The notes beneath the pieces are model-generated. The model was not told the DNA's origin and searched no databases. It saw nothing but the letters and a program-made list of their open reading frames with translations. Positions 35,103 to 38,382 of a stretch of DNA of 64,000 nt are shown here, piece after piece. A program made the translations under genes and the position numbers. The first letter of the stretch is position 1; each line of letters starts with the position of its first letter. Source of the stretch: Leptolyngbya sp. BC1307 (GTDB taxonomy: Bacteria > Cyanobacteriota > Cyanobacteriia > Phormidesmidales > Phormidesmidaceae); assembly GCF_002286735.1 (NCBI RefSeq), contig NZ_NRTA01000002.1, positions 124,001 through 188,000 of the forward strand, given 5' to 3'.

Positions 35103-36884
35103 CTAATCAGCTGATTCTGCGAGCTTCCAGGTGCCAATATCCCAGGTGCTGGCATCCCAGGGAGTCGGATCTATGCCGGTGATGCGATCGCTGACTCCGT
35201 TTGTCACTGCCCGCCACACAATCGGAATCACCGCGACATCCTCTGCCAAAATCGCATTCATCTGCTGAAAGAGCTGAGCCCGCTTTTGCGGATCGAGTTC
35301 TTTGCTGGCCTGTGTCCACAGCTTGTCGTATTCAGGATTGCAGTAGCGAGCATTGTTAGGCTTTTGCCATTTGTTTTCAAGCGAAGCAATCTCATCACAG
35401 AGCCACCAGCTCATGTAAATAGCCGGATCGGGCGTATCGCTGCCCGCGTTGTACTCCTGCATGTCCGCGTAAAAGTGGTTGATGCTGCGAGTCTGCGCCG
35501 GATCTGCTGAAAAGAAATCATCTACCGCCACCTGGCGAATCTCTACTTCAATGCCGACGGCTCTCAGATTTTCTTGAACCAGCGACTGGGTTTCCTGGCG
35601 CACCGGGTTAATCGGCGTTTGGAAGATGACGCGCATCTCCCGGCCGTCTTTGTCGCGGATGCCGTTGCCATTGCTGTCTTTCCAACCGGCTTTATCTAAC
35701 AGGGCCTTAGCGCCCGCCGGATCGTAGCGATGGCTAATCTGAGGGTTAGCGTACTGCTGCGGATAGGTCAGCAGCTGACGGACTGGCTGACCGGCATTGC
35801 CGTAGATCTGATTGGCGATCGCATCTCTATCAATCGCCTGATCGATAGCCTTGCGCACCTGGCGATCATTCAAAAACGGATGCGGATTTTTTACACTAGA
35901 ACGCTCCCCCTCCTTGGTTACCTGATCAGGGTCCGTAGGATTGAGCATAATCCGCTCTACGTAAGAGCCAAAAGTCGCGACGACTTTACCCTCGCCCGCA
36001 CTGGCTAGCGCTACCCGATCATCCACATCTAGCTGCAAGTTGTGAGCAAAATCAGCGTCGCCATCTCGCAGCACCCGCCGGGCCGCTACATAGGGCGTCA
36101 CCTTACCTTCTAGCTCCACCAGGCTAAAGAATGGCAGGCCATCACGATACTGCTCATTAGCAGCGAACGTCCACTGACCATCCGATACCGTAATAAAGCG
36201 ATAGGGGCCAGTACCAACTGGCTGCAGGTTGGCTGGAGCCCGCCGCACATTCACCCCCTGCACGTCAGCAAATACATGCTTGGGAATCACCATGCCATTT
36301 TGGCCAGTAAACGGCAGCTCCCAAGACGGATTAGGCTGCTTAAAGGTAATCTTTACGGTGAGCGGGTCGATGGCCTCTACTTTTTCAATCGCCTCGTAGT
36401 ATTTGTCAGTCACCGCCGCCACTTCGGGGTCACTGACAAACTCGTAGGTAAATACCACATCTTCAGCGGTGAAAGGCTGACTGTCTGACCAACGCACATC
36501 TGGCTTCAGCTTCCAGGTAACAGAGCGGCCATCGGCAGCTAGCCCACCATTCTCTACCGTCGGAATAGCCGCTGCCAGCACCGGAATTAGCTGGCCGTCA
36601 GGCTCGTAGGTAGCCAGCGGCTCATAGACAATCCGCGCCGCTTCAAAGTCTTGAAATCCGTTGGCCAGGTGAGGGTTTAGCGTCGTCGGCGTGCGGCTGT
36701 AGAGCAGCTTTAAGACGGCTTCATTGCGAGCGGCTGCGGGCGCTTCGCGGCTGGCCTCTTGAATCAGGGCAGGCCCAGCCGTGCAGGCCGGTAGCCCTAG
36801 TAGCAGCCCCAGCAAAAAAACGGAGCGCGGTAGCCTCAACAGCGAAGTCCTTAGCTGTCGGTAGGCAAGTAAAGATCTGATCAC
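35103..36884 (-). CDS. Peptide/nickel-type ABC transporter substrate-binding lipoprotein
   Basis: A family 5 extracellular solute-binding protein (SBP_bac_5) of 593 residues, tethered by lipidation: lipobox GLPAC with Cys at residue 34. Family landmarks are visible: LYSRTPTTLNPHLANGFQDF, then WKLKPDVRWSDSQPFTAEDV and FTYEFV, and a C-terminal IPIVWRAVTNGVSDRITGID. These proteins deliver oligopeptides or metal chelates to Dpp/Opp-like permeases. No permease or ATPase gene is adjacent, so the partner must lie elsewhere. The start is GTG at 36884. The ligand cannot be decided from sequence. Confidence 0.9.
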   Translation of the reverse strand: MIRSLLAYRQLRTSLLRLPRSVFLLGLLLGLPACTAGPALIQEASREAPAAARNEAVLKLLYSRTPTTLNPHLANGFQDFEAARIVYEPLATYEPDGQLIPVLAAAIPTVENGGLAADGRSVTWKLKPDVRWSDSQPFTAEDVVFTYEFVSDPEVAAVTDKYYEAIEKVEAIDPLTVKITFKQPNPSWELPFTGQNGMVIPKHVFADVQGVNVRRAPANLQPVGTGPYRFITVSDGQWTFAANEQYRDGLPFFSLVELEGKVTPYVAARRVLRDGDADFAHNLQLDVDDRVALASAGEGKVVATFGSYVERIMLNPTDPDQVTKEGERSSVKNPHPFLNDRQVRKAIDQAIDRDAIANQIYGNAGQPVRQLLTYPQQYANPQISHRYDPAGAKALLDKAGWKDSNGNGIRDKDGREMRVIFQTPINPVRQETQSLVQENLRAVGIEVEIRQVAVDDFFSADPAQTRSINHFYADMQEYNAGSDTPDPAIYMSWWLCDEIASLENKWQKPNNARYCNPEYDKLWTQASKELDPQKRAQLFQQMNAILAEDVAVIPIVWRAVTNGVSDRITGIDPTPWDASTWDIGTWKLAESAD

Positions 36885-37151
36885 AACTATGCACCGTGCG
36901 AGCTAAATAAAGTTAATAGTTCAATGAGAGTAATATTGAACAAACACATAATTCCTTCTACAGACTGCGCCACCCGGATTACCTAATCTGCGAGCTGGCA
37001 AATTTTTATGCGATCGCTCAAAAGCTCATCTCAAAAGCCCATGTATAGTAGCGCGAGTTACCAATTTCTGTGTTTGTGACTCAGCCGCTAATAACGGCGG
37101 CACTGCCCCAGAAATCTCCTGACCACTCTCAGTGACTGAGTAGTAATAGGC

Positions 37152-37203
37152 GGTAGATGCACCCTGATGTTTCCTCGGCCTTGGGGCCGGGGAATTTTCT
37201 TGT
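37152..37203 (+). ncRNA. Putative small RNA, copy 1 of a tandem pair
   Basis: Predicted transcript begins near GGTAGATGCACCCTGA (37152) and ends in a 10-bp terminator hairpin (arms 37171-37180 and 37185-37194, loop TTGG, one wobble) followed by TTTTCTTGTTT. Upstream, CCTGAC lies 28 bp before the GG, with AGTAAT as a possible -10. The same arrangement is repeated 101 bp downstream with different stem bases, so structure is kept while sequence changes. I cannot name an RNA family. Confidence 0.6.
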
Positions 37204-37252
37204 TTAGGCCGTATTTGTCCTGACATCGGTCTCTCCAGCGGAATAGTTAATT

Positions 37253-37308
37253 GGTAGATGCACCCTGACCGTTCCCTAATGCTCTTTTGAGCGTTGGGGA
37301 ATTTTTTT
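37253..37308 (+). ncRNA. Putative small RNA, copy 2 of a tandem pair
   Basis: The shared 5' segment GGTAGATGCACCCTGA starts at 37253 and is followed by a 13-bp hairpin (arms 37272-37284 and 37289-37301, loop TTTT, two wobbles) and seven T. CCTGAC lies exactly 28 bp upstream of the GG, as in copy 1, with TAGTTA as a candidate -10. The strong terminator and matching promoter spacing support a short transcript of about 55 nt. Confidence 0.65.
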
Positions 37309-37465: not shown

Positions 37466-37933
37466 TTAGGCGGGTTCGTCCGGCGTCGCCTCAGCAGCAG
37501 GTTCAGCCGTCTCTACGGTAGTGTCATCAGCAGCTGCGGTAGCTTCAGTAGTCTCAGTAGCTTCAGTGGCTTCGGCGGTAGCTTCATCAGCTTCTTCCAC
37601 TGCCGGGGGTTCCGGTTCAGCAGATTTTGCTGTAGGTTTGGGGCCACGTATCAGAGCAGGATTTAACGGAGTTCTCGGCGCATCGTCTTTGTCACGGCCC
37701 CGACCCTTGCCCCGGCCTTTACTCCCACGACCGCGTCCTTCACTGCGATCTTCACCGCGATCTTCACTGCGCTCTGCTTCGCCAGCGGGGCGATCGCCTT
37801 TCTTGATAGGCCGGGGCGCATTGCTAGCAGGTACCGATTCAGATTTGGCCGTGTCAGAGCTGGCCGTGTCAGATTTGGCCGTATCAGAGTTGGCAGCTTC
37901 GCGATCGCTCTTCTTGATAGGACGATCTACCAT
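37466..37933 (-). CDS. Low-complexity charged hypothetical protein (155 aa)
   Basis: The N-terminus MVDRPIKKSDRE and an internal RPIKKGDRP form a duplicated motif separated by an Ala/Ser/Asp/Thr repeat. The middle (EDRGEDRSEGRGRGSKGRGK) is Arg/Gly-rich, like RGG-type RNA-binding tails. The last third is Glu/Ala/Thr-rich and acidic. The whole protein is probably disordered. RNA binding through the Arg/Gly part is inference only. No family is recognised. It is the last of three same-strand genes of unknown function (39730 to 37466). Confidence 0.55.
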   Translation of the reverse strand: MVDRPIKKSDREAANSDTAKSDTASSDTAKSESVPASNAPRPIKKGDRPAGEAERSEDRGEDRSEGRGRGSKGRGKGRGRDKDDAPRTPLNPALIRGPKPTAKSAEPEPPAVEEADEATAEATEATETTEATAAADDTTVETAEPAAEATPDEPA

Positions 37934-38013: not shown

Positions 38014-38382
38014 CTACATCATGCCTTGATCCATCGAGGGTTCACTGCCCAGCAGCGGCGTATCCCCTTCAGAAGAAGCATCGATGGTCTTACCCACTTC
38101 ACCATTGTCAAGCACAGCTTCAGGGTCAAAATTGAGGCCCAACACGTCAATCAGCGCGTCTTCATCCGAGTTGAGCTGATAAAACGGCACCATCAGGTTA
38201 GACAGTTTGGGTTCGAGCGCGTTAACCACCCCCAAAATCAAAAACGAAGACGGACGGCGTCCGCCCTCCGGTGTGCGTACAGAAGTATTAGCCATCTGCA
38301 CTTCTAGCCAGGTGCGGTTGGCGCGAAAATAGTCCAACCACTTATCTCGAATAACCGACGTAAAATTCTCAAAAAAGGCCAT
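38014..38382 (-). CDS. DUF5331-like cyanobacterial protein
   Basis: A 122-residue protein: MAFFENFTSVIRDKWLDYFR then ANRTWLEVQM, followed by TPEGGRRPSSFLILGVVNAL and EPKLSNLMVPFYQLNSDEDA. This arrangement resembles the cyanobacterial DUF5331 family as I remember it. The C-terminal 35 residues are Ser/Asp/Gly-rich and likely disordered. No membrane segment or signal is present. The function is unknown. It lies between two other hypothetical genes on the same strand. Confidence 0.68.
   Translation of the reverse strand: MAFFENFTSVIRDKWLDYFRANRTWLEVQMANTSVRTPEGGRRPSSFLILGVVNALEPKLSNLMVPFYQLNSDEDALIDVLGLNFDPEAVLDNGEVGKTIDASSEGDTPLLGSEPSMDQGMM

Follow-up and report, generated by a model that had tools for sequence, protein, structure and literature searches.

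Two short units set 101 bp apart are found at positions 37117–37308 (forward strand) of the 64-kb stretch of DNA analysed here, which we refer to as the window. Each consists of TCCTGAC followed after exactly 28 bp by GGTAGATGCACCCTGA, a hairpin and a T-run, and the pair lies between the gene for a solute-binding protein and the genes for a small acidic protein and a DUF5331 protein (Table 1). The 16-mers in copies 1 and 2 (the 5' segments of Table 1) are identical, and no further matches were found across the 64 kb with up to three mismatches allowed; because only ~0.5 matches would be expected even at that looseness, two exact 16-mers are far above chance. Similarity between the units reaches 23 nt with 87% identity. 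A first-pass annotation had described two units at this spacing with CCTGAC, a 28-bp gap and a shared 16-mer, all of which are present in the sequence (CCTGAC at 37118 and 37219), though the real shared box is one base longer at the 5' end (TCCTGAC).

NsiR1 is a known regulatory RNA of ~55 nt that has been studied as a marker of nitrogen-fixing cells (heterocysts). The whole Rfam covariance model for this RNA (RF02399) was matched by both units, with scores of 42.0 bits for copy 1 (37151–37201) and 57.3 bits for copy 2 (37252–37308) compared with a gathering threshold of 39 bits, and the NsiR1 start GGUAGAUGCACCCUGA, a consensus taken from other copies, is exact in both. These matches support the identification of the pair as tandem genes of NsiR1, each with its own putative promoter and terminator and a predicted RNA product. 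We regard the pair as a well-supported member of a known small RNA family in an unexpected host, and the earlier view of two short RNA genes as opposed to a chance arrangement, which did not name the family, agrees with these scores and with the retention of a tandem pair at this position in five of seven genomes of the genus (two have a single copy).

Table 1. Features of the NsiR1 pair and its neighbours (window positions), and NsiR1-like loci given by locus handle.
Feature	Position	Strand	Remarks
Family-5 solute-binding protein gene	35103..36884	-	Divergent from the pair; conserved neighbour (PF00496; synteny)
TCCTGA, putative -35 element, copy 1	37117..37122	+	One mismatch to DIF1 TCCGGA; 35 nt 5' of RNA start
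NsiR1 copy 1, predicted RNA	37152..37201	+	RF02399 match; weaker -10 and T-tract
5' segment, copy 1	37152..37167	+	Invariant; proposed target-pairing region
Intrinsic terminator, copy 1	37171..37201	+	10 pairs; tail TTTTCTT
TCCTGA, putative -35 element, copy 2	37218..37223	+	DIF1-like
GGAATAGTTA, extended -10, copy 2	37240..37249	+	Near family consensus
NsiR1 copy 2, predicted RNA	37253..37308	+	RF02399 match
5' segment, copy 2	37253..37268	+	Invariant; same as copy 1
Intrinsic terminator, copy 2	37271..37308	+	14 pairs, T-run; compensatory changes keep the stem in the genus
155-aa acidic protein	37466..37933	-	Convergent neighbour; no family assigned
DUF5331 protein gene	38014..38382	-	Neighbour (PF17265; synteny)
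NsiR1-like loci	L267 5285; L268 4899 and 4714; L269–L271; L273–L302	+ (L267); - (L268)

Predicted promoters and terminators of the NsiR1 pair

Each copy ends in a predicted hairpin with a T-tract, as is found in NsiR1 where a short RNA is closed by an intrinsic terminator, and the single box in front of each copy at the 101-bp spacing corresponds to the tandem repeats with individual promoters of this family. The hairpin of copy 2 folds much more strongly than shuffled sequence (z -5.35) and that of copy 1 modestly so (z -1.9). Both had been annotated as pairing, and the 10 bp given for copy 1 stand, but the stem in copy 2 has 14 pairs and not 13. Three pairs of the copy 2 stem have changes on both sides within the genus with the pairing kept, and the structural conservation proposed earlier from the two copies extends in this way across the genus, where the sequence of the stem varies and pairing is retained.

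The -10 element is good in copy 2 and degenerate in copy 1, and a scan for sigma-70 promoters returned weak matches only. When we examined 404 NsiR1 copies for hexamers no more than one mismatch from TCCGGA, 387 position hits were at -37, -36 or -35 and no other position had more than ten, and an AGAA-type extended -10 was common to the copies 3' of this hexamer. The combination matches the pattern of the DIF1 promoter class, in which both elements are needed for heterocyst-specific expression (PMC6133370) and which is dependent on hetZ (PMC7377430). While DIF1 has TCCGGA at -35, the window copies have TCCTGA, and the one mismatch is within that tolerated in the published DIF1 set.

Genomic position and distribution of NsiR1

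NsiR1 is found between the same genes, with the solute-binding protein on one side and the 155-aa and DUF5331 proteins on the other, in all seven genomes of the genus. Besides the pair, the host genome (4.9 Mb in 222 contigs) carries NsiR1 above threshold at two further places, ahead of ddl and in the lgt–cobM interval, and each of these three locations is seen again across the genus. Neighbours at 173 other NsiR1 loci included hetF (36 loci), solute-binding protein (12), ddl (12), cobM (7) and lgt (5), and because the same neighbours recur at these other loci we consider the positions to be old. No NsiR1 copy was found in the hetF region of the host; the position upstream of hetF is not required by the Rfam model, and a hetF-adjacent position was found in part of the family only. 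We note that the lgt–cobM copy (L006 4698–4754, reverse strand; orthologues in L208, L209, L213, L216 and L218) has no DIF1 element, and that it is closely preceded by an inverted repeat, TGCATCT-n8-AGATGCA, which is conserved and could fold onto the 5' segment and mask it.

The covariance search of cyanobacterial genomes suggested with the first-pass annotation placed NsiR1 above threshold in all 63 genomes of the host's order and in 190 of 368 Cyanobacteriia genomes; hetR was found in 186 of the 368. NsiR1 and hetR occurred together in 184 genomes, NsiR1 alone in six, hetR alone in two and neither in 176, a co-occurrence which follows clades and is given here as raw genome counts that ignore kinship. 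Both hetR-only genomes hold weaker NsiR1 hits, and the one we inspected, G211, is of the gatB type described below. Some of the six NsiR1-only genomes are incomplete drafts, while hetR was undetected in two that are 99% complete, G068 and G082 (L303, L305, L308, L310, L313 and L316). A strong nifD hit was missing from 103 of the 190 NsiR1 carriers, and named carriers include Spirulina, Phormidium, Nodosilinea, Oscillatoria and Leptolyngbya. Published work places the origin of hetR in filamentous cyanobacteria, invariably together with patX, ahead of that of heterocysts (PMC7761841), and it has been reported that the two are found in almost all filamentous cyanobacteria, with their role outside the heterocyst-formers called a mystery (PMC11298460).

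The 5' segment and a gatB-side NsiR1-like branch

Positions 2–12 of NsiR1 were identical in all 72 covariance-model copies and positions 13–16 in 94–99% of them, although this is partly circular as the model favours such copies, and variation in the RNA begins at position 17. Near-invariance across the class fits a segment that would pair with targets. When the genus was searched for sequences nearly complementary to the 16-mer, no target with long complementarity was identified among the inspected matches with zero or one mismatch, which were members of the NsiR1 family; matches with two mismatches were few. A 7-nt match near the start of hetF is confined to the host, and no conserved match to the 5' segment was found in hetF start regions, leaving hetF unsupported as a conserved target.

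NsiR1-like RNAs starting with TGTAGATGCACCCTGATGG came to light in the search for sequences complementary to the 5' segment. The host copy of this type (L267 5285, forward strand; G000:C14:93284) falls short of the Rfam threshold with a score of 26.6 bits. The TGTAGATGCACCCTGATGG pattern, with no more than one mismatch, was found in 81 of the 368 class genomes compared with none for a reversed control pattern, and gatB is near at least 20 of the NsiR1-like loci that were fetched. In place of DIF1, these copies have a HetR-type operator, GGGGn5CCCC, at -42 together with a CATAaT-type -10. At least nine of the 12 fixed bases of GAGGGGn5CCCCTC, the hetP-type HetR site (PMC4192349; PMC4649674), are held by 38 of 40 NsiR1-like copies, 31 of them at exactly -42, and the same level of agreement was seen in 0.75% of shuffles and in 3 of 404 DIF1-type copies. 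Six of the seven genus genomes each contain between one and four instances of a tighter form, GGGGTn4CCCCTCA, with the gatB-side RNA as the recurring site. From the operator sequence, HetR may bind at -42 of this RNA, and the branch is apparently undescribed. Among the genomes in which hetR was undetected, G068 retains the HetR-type operator at its gatB-type RNA.

The HetR circuit in the host and the possible role of NsiR1

The host hetR has both Pfam domains, its hetF homologue has a CHAT domain, and patX, with an RGSGR pentapeptide, is immediately upstream of hetR (L230 1886–2213). TCCTGAC, which contains the -35 variant seen in the window pair, is found ~60 bp upstream of patX, though a single hexamer within 100 bp has a chance expectation of a few percent. 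There was no match for nifD in the host assembly (99.99% complete), and in all likelihood the host is a filament of Leptolyngbya type that lacks heterocysts. A nifD match was found in three relatives in the genus; the gene is absent from some members (the host G000, G052 and G053) and present in others (G054, G055 and G057), and NsiR1 is kept in all of them.

In Nostoc PCC 7120, NsiR1 is a HetR-dependent RNA of ~60 nt present as 12 tandem copies upstream of hetF, where it acts as a translational repressor of hetF and of alr3234, a hetP-like gene (PMC9045159). Its induction follows nitrogen step-down. The window pair resembles the NsiR1 of Nostoc/Anabaena sp. PCC 7120 in the 5' segment, the terminator architecture, the tandem arrangement with a putative promoter per copy, and a DIF1-like hexamer at -35. 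It differs in having two tandem copies and not 12, in adjoining a solute-binding-protein gene and not hetF, in having TCCTGA and not TCCGGA at -35, and in being predicted in a host with no nifD match and presumably no heterocysts. A parallel is Limnospira indica PCC 8005, described as a filament with neither heterocysts nor nitrogen fixation but with hetR and a patS-type gene, where the NsiR1-like RNA162 (57 nt) was reported from radiation-response transcriptomes (PMC8400943); this is a distant lineage, and the passages of that paper on RNA162 include no promoter, copy-number or target work. Leptolyngbya sp. BL0902 is nif-less and non-heterocystous and has a patX–hetR operon with a predicted DIF1 promoter (PMC11298460), and the host has the same gene order with TCCTGAC upstream, although that operon encodes proteins whereas the window pair would produce small RNAs.

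Three other explanations of the pair were weighed against these data. The pair might act mainly in cis on the divergent solute-binding-protein gene, as RNA antisense to its 5' leader, in the manner of NsiR1.1 and hetF in Nostoc. The orientation of the gene, its association with NsiR1, which is retained within the genus and at 12 further loci, and the Nostoc NsiR1/hetF arrangement of the same kind are what would be expected in this case, but the sequence separating copy 1 from the start of the gene shows no conservation in the genus, and because other NsiR1 copies adjoin unrelated genes (ddl, lgt–cobM) the part common to NsiR1 is not tied to the solute-binding-protein gene. We judge such a role to be unlikely. 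Still less probable is that a host unable to fix nitrogen has inherited the units as the degenerating, disused leftovers of an NsiR1 array. Copy 1 could be read in this way, as its -10 is degenerate, its T-tract weaker and its score the lower of the two, and the host has no nifD match; against this, copy 2 shows no damage to its promoter, 5' segment or terminator, its stem is kept by compensatory change in genomes of the genus which include others with no nifD match, and NsiR1 is retained by the 103 class carriers noted above.

We reject the suggestion that the conserved segment codes for a micropeptide starting MHPD and is not a pairing region, and consider that there is almost no chance of it being correct. 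Although almost every copy has ATGCACCCTGAT in frame, the reading lengths are scattered, mostly 4–8 codons with 16 and 10 in the window copies, and there is no ribosome-binding site because the AUG is only 5 nt from the RNA start. The third positions of CAC and CCT are almost constant where synonymous changes would be free, which is therefore evidence against a peptide.

Our preferred explanation, of tandem NsiR1 genes with their own promoters, pairing with targets through the 5' segment, switching by HetR–PatX and an older role outside heterocysts, is as a whole very probable. Each copy would be transcribed in the host on the forward strand from its own promoter, formed by the TCCTGA -35 and an AT-rich -10, and each RNA would begin at GGUAGAUG and stop at the intrinsic terminator after ~50–56 nt. 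The single-stranded 5' segment GUAGAUGCACCCUGA most likely pairs with the translation-start regions of target mRNAs and would block translation as in Nostoc. Expression is probably switched by the HetR–PatX circuit, since DIF1 promoters in Anabaena depend on HetR and HetZ and the host keeps patX–hetR. Heterocyst-based nitrogen fixation is unlikely to be the output because no nitrogenase gene was found in the host, and the role of NsiR1 in filamentous cells may be an older one, perhaps concerned with cell state or division.

That NsiR1 is present in a cyanobacterium with no detected nitrogenase gene suggests that this RNA is older than heterocysts. Whether NsiR1 is the ancestral, pre-heterocyst RNA arm of the HetR–PatX circuit, with a DIF1 branch that includes the window pair and a gatB branch under a HetR operator at -42, is in our view evenly balanced; the idea of an old RNA arm is supported but not proved, and is directly testable because hetR deletions in a non-heterocystous strain exist. 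If it is correct, NsiR1 would provide a simple molecular read-out of the HetR–PatX circuit in filaments lacking nitrogenase, and its targets would offer a route to the effectors of the circuit.
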